NCBI RefSeq assembly: GCF_015207525.1
Contig: NZ_JADEWR010000022.1
Coordinates: 74,263-138,262, forward strand
Direction: 5' to 3'
Origin: Nodosilinea sp. LEGE 06152
Lineage (GTDB): Bacteria > Cyanobacteriota > Cyanobacteriia > Phormidesmidales > Phormidesmidaceae
DNA length: 64,000 nucleotides
Of the stretch, positions 3,038-13,163 are shown in pieces. The notes beneath the pieces were generated by a model. It saw only the letters and a list, made by a program, of their open reading frames with translations. It searched no databases and was not told the origin of the DNA. The stretch's first letter is position 1; each line of letters begins with the position of its first letter. The position numbers were made by a program, and so were the translations under genes.

Positions 3038-3243
3038 AACCGTGTCATCCAAATCTCAAGCCATACCTCTTACTTTAAAGAGAAGATATTAGCTTCTAAA
3101 TCTCACCTAAGGAGTATTGACTTTGTCTACCAGACCAAGAAGTGGCTTCGAGAAAATTTTTCTCTCACTAATCTATTTCTAAAGGTAGGTCGCCTCAAGC
3201 AGCAGATTATTTACCATCAAAACACATTTTGAGTAATTCTCCT

Positions 3244-4944
3244 ATGCAGACATTTGACGTTGTTATTATTGGGGCTGGCCATAATGGGTTAGTTTGCGCA
3301 GGATATTTACTAAAAGCAGGCTACAGTGTTTTACTGCTAGAAAAACGCGAGATTCCGGGCGGGGCAGCCACCACAGAAGAAGCCTTACCCGAAGAAGCTC
3401 CCGGTTTTTATTTTAACCTCTGCGCTATTGACCACGAATTCATCCACCTGGGACCTGTGGTCGATGAACTAGAGCTAGAGCGTTACGGCTTAGAGTATCT
3501 CTATTGTGACCCCATCACCTATTGCCCACAGGCAGATGGCAAAGCATTTTTGGCCCACCGCTCAGTCGACAAAACCTGTGCTGAAATTGCCCGCTACAGC
3601 CAGCGAGATGCAGAGCAGTACAAAGAATTCATGGCCTTTTGGGACACCCTTATTCAGGCTATTACCCCCGTATTCAACGCACCGCCAAAATCTGTTATCG
3701 ACATTCTAGGCAACTACGGTCTGCACAACATGCAGGATTTGCTGTCGCTGGTTGGGGGCGTTGACAAGGCGCTAGACCTAATCCGCACCATGTTGAATAG
3801 CCCCCAAGACACCCTCAACGAATGGTTTGAGACCGAGGTAGTTAAAGCACCCCTGGCACGGCTGGCATCGGAACTGGGAGGGCCGCCCTCTCAAAAGACT
3901 CTGGCTGTGGGGTCGATGATGATGGCGCTGCGCCACAACCCCGGCGTAGCCCGTCCCCGAGGCGGTACGGGTGCCCTCGTCGAAGCCCTGGTGCGCATGG
4001 TTAAAGACAATGGCGGCGTCATTTTGTGTGATCAGTCAGTCGAGCAGATTTTAGTCAATGCCGACGGGCGCGTAGAAGGGGTGCGCGTAGCCGGTGGCCA
4101 AGAATATCGAGCCACCAAAGGGGTAATTTCTAATATTGATGCCCAGCGAGTCTTTCAAGACCTAATATCAGCATCCGATGCTCAAACCCTGGCTCCAGAT
4201 CTGAGTGAACGGCTAGACCGCCGGATCGTCAACAACAATGAAGGCATTCTCAAAATTGACTGTGCGCTCTCAGAAATGCCCCGCTTTGAGGCCTACAACC
4301 ACCAGGATGATTACCTGATTGGCTCGGTGCTAATCGCTGACTCGGTAGATCAGGTGGAAACAGCCCACACTATGCCCAGCCAGGGTCTGATTCCCGATCA
4401 CGATCCATCGCTTTATGTGGTCGTGCCCACGGTAATGGACCCATCAATGGCACCCGCAGGTCAGCACACCCTTTGGATTGAGTTTTTTGCCCCATACGAG
4501 GTGAAAGGGGCCGAAGGCACAGGGCTGCTGGGCACCGGCTGGACCGACGAACTTAAAAACAAAGTGGCCGATCGCGTGCTCGACAAACTGGCCGACTACA
4601 CCCCTAACCTCAAGCAGTCGATCATTGCACGGCGGGTCGAAAGCCCGGCAGAGCTGACCCAGCGCATTGGCGTGCGCAAGGGCAACCACTACCACATCGA
4701 CATGACCCTCGACCAGATGGTGTTCTTTCGCCCCCTGCCCGAGCTAGCCAACTACCAAACCCCAATTGAAGGGTTGTTTTTGACTGGAGCGGGTACCCAT
4801 CCGGGCGGGTCGATCTCGGGTATACCGGGGCGCAACTGTGCTCGCGTGTTCTTGAGCGTGCAGGAACCCCTGAAGTACAACCTGAAGGAAGCCGGTAACT
4901 GGCTCAAGGATCGCTTTAAGTCGGTGGCTAACCTCGGCCGCTAA
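3244..4944 (+). CDS. crtO: Beta-carotene ketolase, CrtO type (FAD-dependent)
   Basis: CrtO introduces keto groups on the beta-ionone rings of carotenoids, giving echinenone and canthaxanthin. It belongs to the phytoene-desaturase-like flavoprotein family, not the CrtW diiron family. The 566-residue protein starts with an FAD/NAD-binding Rossmann motif (VVIIGAGHNGLVCAGYLL) followed by LLEKREIPGGAATTE. It keeps CrtO-like blocks such as CAIDHEFIHLGPVVDELELE, ARPRGGTGALVEALV, NNNEGILKIDCALS and the C-terminal TGAGTHPGGSISGIPGRNC. The length fits the cyanobacterial family. An in-frame TTG at 3229 would add five residues; the ATG at 3244 is preferred because it places MQTFDVV like other CrtO N-termini. 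It is probably membrane associated and monocistronic. Confidence 0.9.
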   Translation: MQTFDVVIIGAGHNGLVCAGYLLKAGYSVLLLEKREIPGGAATTEEALPEEAPGFYFNLCAIDHEFIHLGPVVDELELERYGLEYLYCDPITYCPQADGKAFLAHRSVDKTCAEIARYSQRDAEQYKEFMAFWDTLIQAITPVFNAPPKSVIDILGNYGLHNMQDLLSLVGGVDKALDLIRTMLNSPQDTLNEWFETEVVKAPLARLASELGGPPSQKTLAVGSMMMALRHNPGVARPRGGTGALVEALVRMVKDNGGVILCDQSVEQILVNADGRVEGVRVAGGQEYRATKGVISNIDAQRVFQDLISASDAQTLAPDLSERLDRRIVNNNEGILKIDCALSEMPRFEAYNHQDDYLIGSVLIADSVDQVETAHTMPSQGLIPDHDPSLYVVVPTVMDPSMAPAGQHTLWIEFFAPYEVKGAEGTGLLGTGWTDELKNKVADRVLDKLADYTPNLKQSIIARRVESPAELTQRIGVRKGNHYHIDMTLDQMVFFRPLPELANYQTPIEGLFLTGAGTHPGGSISGIPGRNCARVFLSVQEPLKYNLKEAGNWLKDRFKSVANLGR

Positions 4945-6155: not shown

Positions 6156-6662
6156 TTGTATGAGCAGACTGGCAGAGGCAAGGGGCTGGATACAGGAACA
6201 CCGCACAGCTGGAAAATTCTTGGTCACAGCACACGTTAAAACCAGCCTGACCACTCAATAGTGCGCCAAAAAAATAATTGGTATCGAGTCCGCATTTCAA
6301 AAACCTCGAATCAAAACGGGCATTCTGTAGAGGCAAACAGTTATTTGTCCTCAACCAATCGGAGGTAAGCCATCAGGGTTTAGAATGAAACGCTATTTCT
6401 CGCTCACTTATTTTTTATACCACCGTTGCCAAATACCTGATGTAGTAGTCACGGCTCACAGGGGCAAACCAAAGAAATTTTTGGCAAAGAAAATTCAAGT
6501 TTTTTATGTGTATGTTAAATCTGCGTTGGGCTAACTTTAAGGCTAGCTCCAAAGAAGTAGATCGGCACTTAAATAGCGTCGGCTATTCAGCTCCAATGAT
6601 AGATATGACTTTGGCCTGCAGTTATTAAGCTGTGATTGGATATTTCACTGGAGTCCTTCTCT

Positions 6663-7691
6663 ATGCCTGCCACCTTAAACGATCAGAAGCGAACTGCGAT
6701 CGCTGAGAAACTGGCCGACATCAAGGCCATTCAAAGCTTGATCATCGACAATGAGGAGCAGTTTCTAACCCAGTGCAACGACAATCACCTGCGCAAGCGG
6801 CTGGAAGACATGCTGGAAGACGACCAAAAAAACTTGGACATCGTCGAAACCGCTATCACCCAGTACGGCATCCAGGCCGAGCCTAAACCTACGGTGCAAG
6901 AGTTTGTCAGCCAGGCCAAAGACACCCTCTCTCGCTCTGAGCTGAGCCTGTACGAGAAAATGGCCCAGCACGAACTGCTCAAGCATGGCCAAGTCGTATC
7001 GGGTCTGGTGGTACACAAAGCGGCTCAGGTGGTAGGCCAAGACGTAGAAGCCGCTCTGGCTCCCCTCAATACCGTGAACTTTGAAAACCGCGCTCACCAG
7101 GAGCAGCTCAAGGGCATGCTTGAGTACCTTGGCACTCTAGAGCTAACCGGCCAAGAACCCCAGCAGGGGCTGTGGGCTCGCGTGCAGGATGCGATCGCCG
7201 CCGCTACCGGAGTTGTGGGCAGCGCCACCACTCAAGCATCAGACAGCGACTCGGCTGATGTCCTAGATCTGATCTTTATGGATCACCAAAAGGCCAGCAC
7301 CCTAATTAGAGAAATTCGCAACGCTGACGACGCTGAACAAATCAAAGTTCTGTTTGGTCAGCTGTACAAAGACCTGCTAGTGCACTCCAAAGCGGAAGAA
7401 GAAGTCGTTTACCCCGCTGTTCAGCCCTTCTACGGCAACGACGACACCCAGGAGCTTTACGCTGAGCAGGCCGAAATGGAAAACCTGCTCAACGAACTCA
7501 AGTCTATGCCTTCTACGGGCGATGCGTTTATGACCAAAATCAAGCAGCTCAAGGGCGTGGTAGTTGATCACACCCGTCAGGAAGAGAGCACCATGTTTGC
7601 ATCTATGCGCAAAAACCTCTCCCAAAAAGACCGCGAGCAACTGGGCGCACGATTTAAGCAGAGCAAGCAGACGCTGCAAAGCCAGATGTAA
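6663..7691 (+). CDS. Ferritin-like/hemerythrin HHE two-domain protein
   Basis: The 342-residue protein has two helical halves. The N-terminal half (about 1-170) is ferritin-like, with acidic helices such as IIDNEEQFLTQCNDNHLRKR and YEKMAQHELLKHGQVVSGLV. The C-terminal half (about 205-325) is a hemerythrin HHE domain: LIFMDHQKASTLIREI, LLVHSKAEEEVVYPAV and VVVDHTRQEESTMFASM supply the H, HxxxE and HxxxE iron ligands. Such proteins bind oxygen, iron or nitric-oxide-type ligands in stress responses. The start at 6663 follows GGAG by 9 nt; the 9-codon-longer frame has no signal. A hairpin follows the stop codon. The substrate is unknown. Confidence 0.85.
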   Translation: MPATLNDQKRTAIAEKLADIKAIQSLIIDNEEQFLTQCNDNHLRKRLEDMLEDDQKNLDIVETAITQYGIQAEPKPTVQEFVSQAKDTLSRSELSLYEKMAQHELLKHGQVVSGLVVHKAAQVVGQDVEAALAPLNTVNFENRAHQEQLKGMLEYLGTLELTGQEPQQGLWARVQDAIAAATGVVGSATTQASDSDSADVLDLIFMDHQKASTLIREIRNADDAEQIKVLFGQLYKDLLVHSKAEEEVVYPAVQPFYGNDDTQELYAEQAEMENLLNELKSMPSTGDAFMTKIKQLKGVVVDHTRQEESTMFASMRKNLSQKDREQLGARFKQSKQTLQSQM

Positions 7692-8391: not shown

Positions 8392-9123
8392 ATGATCGTC
8401 AATCTTCAAACCGATGGTTGGGAAATTATTTACCACCGCGCCCACGCTCTTTTAGCCGCCCAAATTGCAGGTCACTGGGACTTTAGCAAACAGACCTACC
8501 GCCTTTACGAAACCATTGCCGCGATCGCCCACCACGACCACCTCGAAAAAGAGTGGGAAGAGGATCAGCTCACCGAGGCCGGTGCCCCCCTAGACTTCAC
8601 CCTAGAGAAAGAAACGCAGGTTGAGAAGCTGCGCAAGCACGCCGATGAAGCCCTGTACCAGGGCCGCTGGGTGGCCATGCTAATTTCGATGCACCTCTGC
8701 TTTCTAAACCAGGGCAAAGGCGACGAAGACCCTGAGATAGCCGACTTTTTGCAGGTTCAGCGGCAGCGGCAGGCCGAATGGCAAGCCGAGCTAGAGATTA
8801 GCCAGGAGGATGCTGAAAAGGCCTATACCTTCATGCGGTGGTGCGATCGCCTCTCGCTCATTCTCTCCCAGCGTCAAATTCCCGCCGCCGGACGCAAGCT
8901 AGAGATTACCAATGGCCCAAGTGGTGAATCCTACAGCATTTACCAGCTAGATTCTGGCGATTTGAGCGTCACACCCTGGCCATTTTCCTGCGAAAAATTT
9001 ACGGTTAAAGTAGATGCCTGCTATTTGTCGCAGCTACAGTTCTCCTCCAACGACGAACTTACTCAGGCGCTAAAAGAGGCTCCTCGCAAGTCGCTGGCCT
9101 GGACCCTCAAAAAGTCGGACTAA
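8392..9123 (+). CDS. DUF3891-family protein
   Basis: The 243-residue soluble protein has the DUF3891 look: WEIIYHRAHALLAAQIAGHW near the N-terminus, then AAIAHHDHLEKEWEEDQLTE and the histidine/aspartate-rich middle region (MLISMHLCFLNQGKGDEDPE, FMRWCDRLSLILSQRQIPAA). The pattern of conserved H and D residues resembles a metal-dependent phosphohydrolase core, but no function is established for the family. No signal peptide or membrane segment is seen. A 190-bp gap separates it from the amylase gene. Confidence 0.75.
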   Translation: MIVNLQTDGWEIIYHRAHALLAAQIAGHWDFSKQTYRLYETIAAIAHHDHLEKEWEEDQLTEAGAPLDFTLEKETQVEKLRKHADEALYQGRWVAMLISMHLCFLNQGKGDEDPEIADFLQVQRQRQAEWQAELEISQEDAEKAYTFMRWCDRLSLILSQRQIPAAGRKLEITNGPSGESYSIYQLDSGDLSVTPWPFSCEKFTVKVDACYLSQLQFSSNDELTQALKEAPRKSLAWTLKKSD

Positions 9124-9314
9124 GCGAAATTTCAGGCCAAAAGAAGGGTGTTGCTTAACGCGGAGACGTTTTGCCTTCTAGCTTCTCTGCTTTGAGAAAG
9201 CCGGAATTTCAAAGCCTCCAAAACTTGGAGTACAGGGTAGCAACGTAAGGTTATGGCATTGACAGCGCCATGCCGCAATTTAGCAACACCGAAAAAAGTT
9301 GGGAGGCTAAGGCT

Positions 9315-10793
9315 ATGGCGGAGCCCCATGGCGTCATGATGCAATTTTTCCATTGGTACACGCCAGCCAATGGCCACTTGTGGAACGAGTTTGCTAACCA
9401 GGCAAACGAGCTTGCGGCGGCAGGCATTACCGCCGTCTGGCTGCCGCCAGCCTACAAAGGCAGTAGTGGCGGCCTAGATGCGGGCTATAGCGTCTATGAT
9501 TTATACGATTTAGGTGAGTTTGACCAAAAAGGCAGTATTCGCACCAAGTATGGCACCAAAGATGATTATCTCCACGCCATTCAGGCCGCCAGGGCCGCCG
9601 GCATAAAAGTTTATGCTGACGTTATTTTGAATCACATGGTGGGGGGTGATGCCACCGAAGACGTAGAAGCCACACCGCTAAGTCGCGAAAATCAAAAAGA
9701 TGTAATCGGCGAAAACCGGATTGTCAAAGCCTGGACGCACTTCACCTTTCCGGGGCGCAAGGGCAAGTACTCTGTGATGGAGTGGCACTGGTGGCATTTT
9801 GATGCCGTTGACTACGATGCCAATGACAAACATCACGACGCTATTTACGTATTCAACGGCAAATTTCTTCAAGATGACGGCGACCTGGAGGACAGAACTA
9901 CCGCTTTTTTGATCGGTTGTGATCTAGACACCCAGTCTAAGGACGTACGAGATGCCCTGAAGCACTGGGGAGATTGGTACGTCAAAACCACCCAAATAGA
10001 TGGGTTTCGCTTTGATGCCGTCAAGCACGTCAGATCTGACTTTTTCTCAGACTTTCTACGGCACTGTCGCGACCAAAGCGGCAAAAATCTGTTTGCCGTG
10101 GGCGAGTACTGGTCCTCTGACCCCAGCCTCCTGCAAAGGTTTATCGATAGAACCGGCGGCGATATTCACTTATTCGATGTGCCGCTACATTACAACCTCA
10201 GCCGGGCCAGCAGAAGCGGCGATCGCTATGACTTGACCACAATTTTCGATCACACGCTGGTTAAGCAACAGCCAGCGCTAGCCGTTACCATGGTCGACAA
10301 CCACGATTCACAACCGCTACAGGCATCAGAATCGACCATTGAACCCTGGTTTAAGCCTCAGGCCTATGCTTTAATTCTGCTGCGTCAAGCAGGCTATCCC
10401 TGTATTTTTTATGCCGACTACTACGGTGCCCATTACACCGATGTCGGTCGCGATGGCAAAGAGCAAGATATTAAGCTCGACAGCTATCGGTGGCTAATCG
10501 ATCGGTTTTTACAGGTGCGACGCACCTATGCCTTTGGTGAGCAGCACGATTACTTCAACCATCCCAATTCTATTGGCTGGACGCGCCTGGGGGACAGCGA
10601 CCACCCCGGTGGTATGGCGGTCATTACATCCAATGGCGGCAACAGTTCCAAATACATGAAAGTAGGACTGCCCAACTGCACCTACTACGATATCACCGAG
10701 CATCTCAGTTGCCCGGTAACCACTAACGATGAAGGATGGGCCAGGTTCAACTGTGCCGCAGTTTCAGTCTCGGTGTGGGTACCCAGAGACTAA
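9315..10793 (+). CDS. GH13 alpha-amylase, cytoplasmic type
   Basis: This enzyme hydrolyses alpha-1,4-glucans such as the cell's own glycogen. The 492-residue protein has no signal peptide, so it should act in the cytoplasm. All four GH13 motifs are present: DVILNH (from D102), GFRFDAVKH (nucleophile D234), VGEYW (acid/base E264) and VDNHD (transition-state D331). The N-terminal GVMMQFFHWYTPANGHLW is typical of the liquefying bacterial amylase subfamily (GH13_5-like). The start at 9315 follows GGGAGG by 8 nt; a start at 9270 would add 15 residues without such a signal. The gene stands alone, with a small hairpin 80 bp downstream. Confidence 0.9.
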   Translation: MAEPHGVMMQFFHWYTPANGHLWNEFANQANELAAAGITAVWLPPAYKGSSGGLDAGYSVYDLYDLGEFDQKGSIRTKYGTKDDYLHAIQAARAAGIKVYADVILNHMVGGDATEDVEATPLSRENQKDVIGENRIVKAWTHFTFPGRKGKYSVMEWHWWHFDAVDYDANDKHHDAIYVFNGKFLQDDGDLEDRTTAFLIGCDLDTQSKDVRDALKHWGDWYVKTTQIDGFRFDAVKHVRSDFFSDFLRHCRDQSGKNLFAVGEYWSSDPSLLQRFIDRTGGDIHLFDVPLHYNLSRASRSGDRYDLTTIFDHTLVKQQPALAVTMVDNHDSQPLQASESTIEPWFKPQAYALILLRQAGYPCIFYADYYGAHYTDVGRDGKEQDIKLDSYRWLIDRFLQVRRTYAFGEQHDYFNHPNSIGWTRLGDSDHPGGMAVITSNGGNSSKYMKVGLPNCTYYDITEHLSCPVTTNDEGWARFNCAAVSVSVWVPRD

Positions 10794-10888: not shown

Positions 10889-11088
10889 TTAGCGTAAACA
10901 GCTCAGCCACAAATAGCCCAACCCGACATTCTGCCCACAGGCAGATAGGATATTTCTATTCAGTAGCTAGAGTTAAACTATGCCCATCAAGCGATTAATA
11001 GGTCTTATTCGTCGATCGGTTCACTAGTCGACTCACTCAAGATAGGCCGATTAGTAAATCAATGGGAAGAGATTTCTAAGGTATCTTT

Positions 11089-12216
11089 ATGTTTGCCGCT
11101 GTCAATAATCGAGATCTGAGGCAAAATGTCTCAGGTCACAGCTTTTCAACGCCAGAGAGCATTGATTTTGGTGCTCTGGAGAAAGAGTTTATTGATCTGC
11201 TAAATCTTGAAAATCTTGACCAACAGGTCACCCAAGCTCCCCAGTGTGTTGAGGCGCTAGAAGCGGCGATCGCCGCCGCGCTGCCGATGGCCTATAGCAA
11301 TGCCTCAGAACCCGGTGATGAAGCGGCCCATCGGTTCTTGCAACGCATTTTGTACCGAATTAACCGCCTCAACCTGTTTTGGTACGACGACCTGCAGCAC
11401 TACAAAAACGAGCGATCGCTCTACCTACAGTGGCTGCGCGATCGCATTGAGTCTGCCTGGCAAGCCTGGGAACTAGGGCAGATGGATGTTGCCTCCCTAC
11501 AGCAGCAGGATGTGCAGCAAACGCTCAGAGAATGGTACGAAGCCGACCTAAACCCGCCGGTTACCGAAAATAGACGGTTCTTGCGCGAGGACCTCGACCG
11601 CGAGGGCTATCGACGGCTGCTGGCGATTACTTCCTTGGATGGCCTAGTAGAAGCCAGCCGCATGTCGCGCATTTTGGGCGGGGCCAGTAACGAAGTCCAG
11701 GCCATGTTGATTCGAGTGCTAATGGAAGAGTACGGCAACGGCCGCCTCGCCCGTAAACACTCTACTTTCTTTGCCAAAATGATGGCCGAAATGGACCTCA
11801 ACACTACCCCAGAAGGGTATTTTGATCTGGCTCCCTGGCAGCTATTGGCTAGCATTAACCACAACTTTTTGCTAACCGAATGCAAGCAGTATTTTCTGCG
11901 CTACAACGGTGGGCTAACCTATTTTGAAATCGTTGGCCCCTCAATCTACACCGATTACCTGATGGCCGCCAAGCGATTAAATTTGAGCGAAGAGTCATCA
12001 GGATATTGGGAGCTGCACATTCGAGAAGATGAGCGCCACGGGCTGTGGATGCTACAGGATGTGGCACTCCCACTAGCGGAGCAATACTCTGACAAGGCCT
12101 GGGAAATTTTGCTGGGATATGCCCAAGAAAAGTTCATTGGAGAACGGGCTGGGCAAGCCATCATTCAGCAAATTCAGCAAGCATCTACTCCTCTACCGCG
12201 TGTTCACGCCGCCTAA
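11089..12216 (+). CDS. Haem-oxygenase-like diiron oxidase (HDO, iron-containing redox enzyme family)
   Basis: The 375-residue, all-helical protein has an N-terminal helical region (about 1-165) and an HDO fold. Candidate iron ligands are E188, E214 (EEYGNG), H224 (RKHSTFF), E280 (YFEIVG) and the helix-3 triad H310-xxx-D314-xx-H317 (HIREDERH). As I recall it, the N-oxygenase SznF uses E189, E215, H225, E281, H311, D315 and H318, so the spacing here is the same with a one-residue offset; this needs an alignment. No cupin domain follows, unlike SznF. HDOs activate O2 to oxidise, cleave or N-hydroxylate small molecules. The substrate is unknown. A methyltransferase starts 40 bp downstream on the same strand, probably in one transcript. 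Confidence 0.85.
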   Translation: MFAAVNNRDLRQNVSGHSFSTPESIDFGALEKEFIDLLNLENLDQQVTQAPQCVEALEAAIAAALPMAYSNASEPGDEAAHRFLQRILYRINRLNLFWYDDLQHYKNERSLYLQWLRDRIESAWQAWELGQMDVASLQQQDVQQTLREWYEADLNPPVTENRRFLREDLDREGYRRLLAITSLDGLVEASRMSRILGGASNEVQAMLIRVLMEEYGNGRLARKHSTFFAKMMAEMDLNTTPEGYFDLAPWQLLASINHNFLLTECKQYFLRYNGGLTYFEIVGPSIYTDYLMAAKRLNLSEESSGYWELHIREDERHGLWMLQDVALPLAEQYSDKAWEILLGYAQEKFIGERAGQAIIQQIQQASTPLPRVHAA

Positions 12217-12256
12217 ATTGCGAGCCTTCTTTAACCTACTTACTTAAACCCCTGCT

Positions 12257-13000
12257 ATGAACAAAAGCTTGTTGACCTCAGACACTGCGGTTGAGGCTAA
12301 GTCTCCCAATCAAGTTTTCTTTTGTCCTGAAGAATCACAATTTTATGCCCAGTGTCTGGAGAAAATGGTGCTGTCCCAAAGCACCTCAGAAGGCCCCATC
12401 GTTGAATTTGGGTCTGGGGACGGTAGTCCGGTCATTCAAGCACTGCTGAGAAGCTCCTTTAAAGGGGCAATTCAGGGCTTCGAATTAAACCCAGCGGCTT
12501 ACCAATTGGCAAAGCTGAGAATTGAGCAGTATGGGCTAACACCTTATTACACCGTTCATAACGACTGTTTTTTTGAGGGTTCTCCAGCAGAAGCGCGCTG
12601 CCTAATCGCCAACCCGCCCTACCTGCCCGCTCCTGACAATCAGCTATACATGCCGTCTTTGCACGGCGGCGACGACGGGGCTGCCATTACCAATCAGCTC
12701 ATTGCCCAGGGCTGTGAGCAGGTCATGCTGATGATTTCAGCCTATTCAAACCCTGTCAATACGGTTAACCACGCGCTCAAACTTGGGTACGAAGTGGTTG
12801 ATTTTATGGTCACGCCGCTCAAGTTTGGCTACTACAGTTGCGAACCTAAGGTAAGAGACTCGATCGCAAAACTCAAGTGTAGACGTCAAGCGTTCTTTTC
12901 AGAGAGAATATACTTTTTGGCCGGGGTTCTTTTTCGTCAAAAGAGCGCCTCGACAGTCTGTCTCTCAGAAGAGTTTCTAAAAGTGATGACAGCACTTTAG
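12257..13000 (+). CDS. SAM-dependent methyltransferase with NPPY motif
   Basis: This 247-residue class I methyltransferase shows the SAM-binding motif IVEFGSGDGSPVIQALL (about 49-65), an acidic motif II (GFELNPAAYQLA) and the catalytic CLIANPPYLPAP (about 115-126). NPPY is typical of enzymes that methylate planar nitrogen: N6-adenine, N5-glutamine (HemK/PrmC) or small-molecule amines. The short length and lack of a DNA-recognition domain argue against a restriction methylase. A role on the product of the upstream HDO is possible but is only inferred from the 40-bp spacing and shared strand. The transcript ends at the hairpin at 13107-13163. Confidence 0.8.
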   Translation: MNKSLLTSDTAVEAKSPNQVFFCPEESQFYAQCLEKMVLSQSTSEGPIVEFGSGDGSPVIQALLRSSFKGAIQGFELNPAAYQLAKLRIEQYGLTPYYTVHNDCFFEGSPAEARCLIANPPYLPAPDNQLYMPSLHGGDDGAAITNQLIAQGCEQVMLMISAYSNPVNTVNHALKLGYEVVDFMVTPLKFGYYSCEPKVRDSIAKLKCRRQAFFSERIYFLAGVLFRQKSASTVCLSEEFLKVMTAL

Positions 13001-13106: not shown

Positions 13107-13163
13107 AATAGCCATAGCCGTTCCCTTCGACTTCGCTCAGGGAACGGCTATGGCTATTTTTAT
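13107..13163 (+). terminator. Strong intrinsic terminator containing a dispersed repeat loop
   Basis: A 19-bp perfect stem (AATAGCCATAGCCGTTCCC and its complement) encloses the loop TTCGACTTCGCTCA and is followed by TTTTATTG. The loop and inner stem match a repeat also found at 30208-30229. It separates the methyltransferase gene from the convergent response-regulator gene and could stop both. Confidence 0.85.

Follow-up and report, generated by a model that had tools for sequence, protein, structure and literature searches.

A diiron oxidase of the heme-oxygenase-like superfamily recurrently paired with a HemK-type methyltransferase in cyanobacteria: a candidate two-enzyme pathway

The reactions of heme-oxygenase-like diiron oxidases (HDOs) range over desaturation, C-C cleavage and the formation of nitriles and azetidines, and NPPY methyltransferases include enzymes acting on protein glutamine and on RNA or DNA bases. 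HDOs form a large and mostly uncharacterized superfamily of oxygenases of which about a dozen have been validated (PMC13108848). The 3H/4C ligand set is found in about 25% of them and, in SznF, goes with an activation of O2 that is independent of the substrate (PMC13108848). The extra Fe1 ligand of this class, E189 in SznF and E93 in RohS, is provided by the auxiliary helix alpha-2 (PMC11611611). SznF (StzF) operates in streptozotocin biosynthesis together with a dedicated N-methyltransferase, SznE (StzE), which methylates the guanidine of arginine for it (PMC11705231). It belongs to a large biosynthetic cluster and carries a C-terminal cupin for N-N bond formation. RohS, the azomycin N-oxygenase, is a stand-alone HDO of about 300 residues working with RohP, RohQ and RohR, and HrmI (BelK) is a lysine N6-oxygenase of the 3H/3C type. 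Finally, the Acinetobacter desiccation tolerance protein DtpC is an HDO encoded in an operon with katE; it protects dried cells and requires its ligand residues (PMC13232832).

The locus described here lies in a window of 64,000 nucleotides from Nodosilinea sp. LEGE 06152. An HDO gene (11089-12216, forward strand, 375 residues), recognized by PF14518, PDB-sequence matches and a structural model, encodes an N-terminal helical region and a heme-oxygenase-like diiron domain. It is separated by a 40-bp spacer from a gene on the same strand (12257-13000, 247 residues) whose profiles, motifs and model indicate a HemK/N6AMT1-like class I SAM methyltransferase. These boundaries are exactly those of the preliminary description. 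A palindromic element, TTCTGCC-CACA-GGCAGATAGG (10929-10949, forward strand), is located about 140 bp upstream of the HDO start and is a possible operator: it is kept in 8/8 loci of the Nodosilinea group and occurs only once in the genome (6.34 Mb), even when one mismatch is allowed. Another locus (L011) carries TCTGCCCGCAGGCGGA at -124. No NtcA-like site was seen by eye upstream of the HDO gene. On the other side, the strong terminator initially noted after the methyltransferase gene corresponds to a long, perfect hairpin with a T-run (13107-13163; -44.5 kcal/mol for a 90-base stretch), but it is absent from the output of a consensus terminator scan. Because it is placed between the convergent methyltransferase and response-regulator genes, it may serve both strands.

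The HDO had been credited, from its sequence, with a full set of seven diiron ligands spaced as in SznF but without the cupin domain, and both points hold. E188 (11650-11652), the extra Fe1 ligand of the 3H/4C class, E214 (11728-11730), H224 (11758-11760), E280 (11926-11928) and the H310-x3-D314-x2-H317 motif of core helix alpha-3 (12016-12039), all on the forward strand, align by phmmer with SznF E189, E215, H225, E281, H311, D315 and H318, each one number higher, and with E/E/H/E/H/D/H of RohS. The superposition on HDO sites on which the preliminary description had staked its reading is therefore found with both enzymes. All seven residues are identical in 37/37 orthologues, the lowest orthologue identity being 47%. 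E214, H224, E280, H310, D314 and H317 constitute the E-H-E-H-(D/E)-H dimetal motif of HDOs, and E188, invariant and matched by E189 in SznF and by the corresponding glutamate in RohS, distinguishes the 3H/4C subset. The protein matches PF14518 over residues 181-343 (E 8.4e-24, 84.8 bits for a cut-off of 28.9), no other Pfam family and no NCBIfam model. The Pfam scan detected no cupin and the protein ends at residue 375. Where SznF possesses its cupin, the present locus offers neither this domain nor any recurrent second gene apart from the methyltransferase. The assignment to the diiron HDOs of the 3H/4C class, predicted from sequence, is solid. A second PF14518 protein encoded in the same genome (L002, 1393-2100, reverse strand) is shorter (235 residues) and its gene adjoins an enolase-superfamily gene.

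A profile built from the 37 orthologues and searched against all PDB sequences (E<=10) retrieved RohS (7.7e-19), SznF (6.4e-14) and HrmI (5.5e-6) and no further solved HDO; identity to these N-oxygenases is about 15-22%. RohS, the best sequence relative among solved HDOs, differs by its size, the Nodosilinea protein having a longer N-terminal region. The AlphaFold2 model (mean pLDDT 82.7) resembles HrmI best, and over its full length (Z 28.4, rmsd 3.4, 323 residues), followed by SznF (Z 23.6, rmsd 3.9, 309 residues), RohS (Z 23.3, rmsd 3.1, 264 residues) and FlcD, which also aligns full length (Z 21.8, 304 residues). BesC, CADD, AetD, UndA and PolF give Z <=17, a score limited by their shorter chains. 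The PF14518 score and the match of the model to HrmI, SznF and RohS characterize the seven-helix heme-oxygenase-like fold. Since HrmI, the best structural match, is a 3H/3C enzyme of weak sequence similarity, whereas the present protein has the extra glutamate, structure alone leaves the reaction unfixed. The model falls below pLDDT 50 around residues 196-200 and 217-221, which would be in keeping with a labile metal site but also limits the model.

The small NPPY methyltransferase announced by the preliminary description is equally well defined. Motif I for SAM binding, IVEFGSGDG (residues 48-56, 12398-12424), has E50, F51, G52, G54 and G56 invariant. The catalytic NPPY (residues 119-122, 12611-12622) and the GGDDG (residues 137-141, 12665-12679; G137, G138, D140 and G141 invariant), which aligns with GGEDG of HemK, represent the two motifs of the PrmC/HemK family, and both are conserved in 35/35 orthologues; all three lie on the forward strand. 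Family models are matched poorly: PF05175, of small-domain methyltransferases, weakly (E 0.0012), and NCBIfam models of the HemK kind with scores that nowhere approach the cut-off. The PrmC model TIGR03534 yields 23.8 bits for a cut-off of 199.1, so that the enzyme does not score as a curated PrmC. A methyltransferase profile reaches HemK at 2e-5. The structural model (mean pLDDT 81.0) is closest to N6AMT1 of the HemK/N6AMT1 group (Z 18.4, 180 residues), then to Mtq2, TrmM and PrmC (Z 16.2, 182 residues), to the N-methyltransferase AerE (Z 15.8) and to the carbamoyl N-methyltransferase Asc-Orf2 (Z 14.3). The enzyme thus shares the class I fold, NPPY and GGxDG with HemK/PrmC and N6AMT1 (Z 15-18) and departs from them by its score, by the invariant motifs CPEES, FGYYS and LAGVLF proper to its lineage and by its almost constant association with an HDO. 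Most of its structural relatives methylate a planar amide-type or base nitrogen. These modelled resemblances may guide, without proving, the choice of reaction type, and we lean towards an N-methylating enzyme.

The pairing of the two genes is solid. One genome scan showed the methyltransferase gene adjoining the HDO gene in nearly all of 22 named relatives, as expected by the preliminary description, which would have been undermined had they been neighbours in none. The mapping across cyanobacteria that it had called for extends this observation (E<=1e-10, fragments counted as matches). HDO occurs in 30 of the 386 sampled cyanobacterial genomes, scattered over 20 of 143 genera, and the methyltransferase in the identical 30; within the family of the window both are found in the same 16 of 65 genomes. 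Once the overlap between the two samples is allowed for, the genes are present together in 45 genomes and both missing from about 400, and no genome possesses just one of them. Among 46 adjacent pairs, the HDO gene precedes the methyltransferase gene on one strand in 35 and the genes converge in 11, no pair being divergent or methyltransferase-first. Gaps from HDO to methyltransferase extend from -4 to 421 bp, some as short as -4 and 6, two larger overlaps being start-choice artefacts of the ORF caller. Side-by-side recurrence at 46 loci in identical genome sets is more than chance; physical linkage by itself accounts for some of the co-occurrence. The distance matrices of the two proteins correlate (r = 0.87; none of 2000 permutations exceeded 0.27) and their trees agree on the main splits. 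Two genomes of family f7 (L030 and L032) hold the Leptolyngbya/Nodosilinea type of both proteins, which suggests a transfer of the genes as a unit. Carriage by phages or plasmids was considered and rejected: IMG/VR contains no relative of the methyltransferase, and plasmids hold distant HDOs and one distant methyltransferase only. An apparent Chloroflexota carrier (L011, on a contig titled Chloroflexaceae) was likewise dismissed: the phylum assigned to it gave back, by coordinates, the same cyanobacterial genomes, and with its genome standing among cyanobacteria in the taxonomy the title looks wrong; its methyltransferase gene has an internal stop codon. In the searches made, the pair is confined to cyanobacteria.

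Several genomes depart from the common arrangement. Calothrix rhizosoleniae (L021), which lies outside the 386- and 65-genome samples, has the HDO and no methyltransferase detected in its assembly; a candidate substitute beside this HDO was identified as an ordinary PrmC. A distance of 1.45 Mb separates the two genes in G308, different contigs carry them in G449, and in G062 a broken HDO copy adjoins the methyltransferase gene while a whole HDO is encoded elsewhere. Only fragments of both are left, side by side, in G056. A transposase ORF abuts a truncated HDO next to a whole methyltransferase in G352 (L053, 365-1516), and one locus (L014) is cut off by the end of its contig. Such exceptions show that genomes in which the genes are unlinked have mostly retained the two, and that decay can affect the HDO and the methyltransferase alike.

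Around the pair, clustering of the neighbours at 52 loci (ORF cut-off 70 residues) recovered the HDO 52 times, the methyltransferase 47 times and no third recurrent family beyond single-lineage synteny. The next clusters, a penicillin-binding protein and a 230-residue protein at 12 loci, reflect Nostoc synteny and were discarded as a third gene of the module. RohS has three partners, whereas only the methyltransferase recurs beside the HDO at these 52 loci. In the Nodosilinea group a DUF3891 gene (8392-9123 in the window) lies upstream of HDO in 8/8 loci; its H/HHD/H/D pattern, judged by eye, would fit a metal site of the HD type. The alpha-amylase gene between them (9270-10793) was rejected as an operon partner: apart from the window it occurs only in L003, and as a fragment in L006, in the manner of a gene gained or lost at a constant position. 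The syntenic block starts with a gene for CrtO, the beta-carotene ketolase (3229-4944; NCBIfam 1071 bits for a cut-off of 1000). The window also has a gene for a hemerythrin-domain protein (6636-7691) whose product resembles, in its C-terminal part and below cut-off, the PA2171 ribosome-binding persister family.

From these elements we favour, with somewhat more confidence than doubt, a self-contained two-enzyme module that N-oxygenates and methylates one small nitrogen compound according to a logic resembling that of SznE/SznF. The HDO, drawing on O2 and on electrons supplied by ferredoxin or another general donor, would form a peroxo-diiron species without a substrate trigger, as SznF does, and would hydroxylate a small metabolite at nitrogen or oxidize that nitrogen further. 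This metabolite would also be methylated by the second enzyme, from SAM and on a planar nitrogen of the NH2 type (amide, guanidine or amidine), either ahead of the oxidation, in the manner of SznE/StzE with SznF, or following it. Since the pair has no constant companion gene, general metabolism should supply the substrate, for which a guanidine or amide compound such as arginine would be the likeliest class; this part of the proposal is tentative. Oxidation and methylation of a nitrogen compound had been put forward in the preliminary description. Its N-oxygenase part is strengthened, because the solved HDOs matched by sequence are all N-oxygenases and the extra Fe1 glutamate E188 is present, and we regard this activity as probable; that both enzymes act on one nitrogen-containing molecule is what we infer by analogy. 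The likeness to SznF/StzF extends to the same seven ligands, the same spacing and a conserved methyltransferase partner. The pair differs in being outside any large cluster, and its HemK/NPPY-type methyltransferase is likened to SznE by its presumed role, not by sequence.

On the side of physiology the main rival, prompted by analogy with DtpC, is that the pair would make a stress protectant or act in oxidative or desiccation stress, by N-oxygenation or other chemistry. DUF3891 and hemerythrin, chosen as controls for the co-occurrence analysis, did not behave as negatives. Hemerythrin is found in 60 of 386 genomes, including 30 of the 30 that bear the pair (p 2.5e-28), and in G185 and G056 within about 4 kb of it; DUF3891 is found in 36 of 386 and in 22 of these 30 (p 4e-20). 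In G091 an N-terminal piece of DUF3891 of about 80 residues forms an open frame between the HDO and methyltransferase genes (L030, 2528-2767). Because these p-values ignore kinship and genome size, both genes are treated as leads. Their presence may only mark large-genome cyanobacteria with common accessory genes, they are unlinked to the pair in most genomes, and what they have in common with it may be a lifestyle, not a pathway. DtpC, likened to the present HDO by description, is likewise part of a two-gene operon, but it is reported with six matching ligands and with the catalase KatE as partner instead of a methyltransferase. Protection against stress as the role of the pair appears unlikely to us.

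The chemistry may also be other than proposed. HDOs being diverse in their reactions (PMC13108848) and FlcD aligning full length, the HDO could desaturate, cleave or rearrange an amino- or fatty-acid substrate, leaving a carboxylate or hydroxyl to the methyltransferase; this seems quite unlikely, given that the profile reaches N-oxygenases only among solved HDOs, that the HDO shares with SznF and RohS, and not with UndA or AetD, the seventh carboxylate that takes the place of substrate at Fe1, and that FlcD is without two of the diiron ligands. Very unlikely in our judgement is a modification of side chains such as Gln, Asn or Arg in a peptide or protein, in place of a free small molecule, even though some HDOs do act on ribosomal peptides (PMC13108848) and the nearest structural relatives of the methyltransferase modify release-factor glutamine (N6AMT1, PrmC) or peptide side chains (AerE). 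The 52 loci, at the 70-residue ORF cut-off, contain no recurrent precursor-like small gene, the gap between the two genes can be as small as -4 to 48 bp, and the genomes presumably keep an ordinary PrmC too, as seen in Calothrix rhizosoleniae.

Both kinds of enzyme are already known, and the open literature searched yielded no description of the pair. Relative to that literature, the novelty lies in a fixed association, outside a gene cluster, between a cupin-less HDO of the 3H/4C class and a methyltransferase of the HemK type. In its boldest form, the reading is of a free-standing cyanobacterial pathway, outside any biosynthetic gene cluster, leading to a previously undescribed N-oxygenated and N-methylated metabolite by the SznE/SznF logic with a methyltransferase of another lineage, and possibly part of a stress-tolerance set with DUF3891 and hemerythrin; we give this whole slightly less than an even chance. 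With a seven-ligand HDO and a single, near-constant partner, two proteins may suffice to reconstitute an entire pathway. Should the substrate resemble arginine, SznF-type chemistry would exist outside large antibiotic clusters, in photosynthetic bacteria; if the pair is a stress factor, it would offer a route to the substrate of DtpC-like HDOs.
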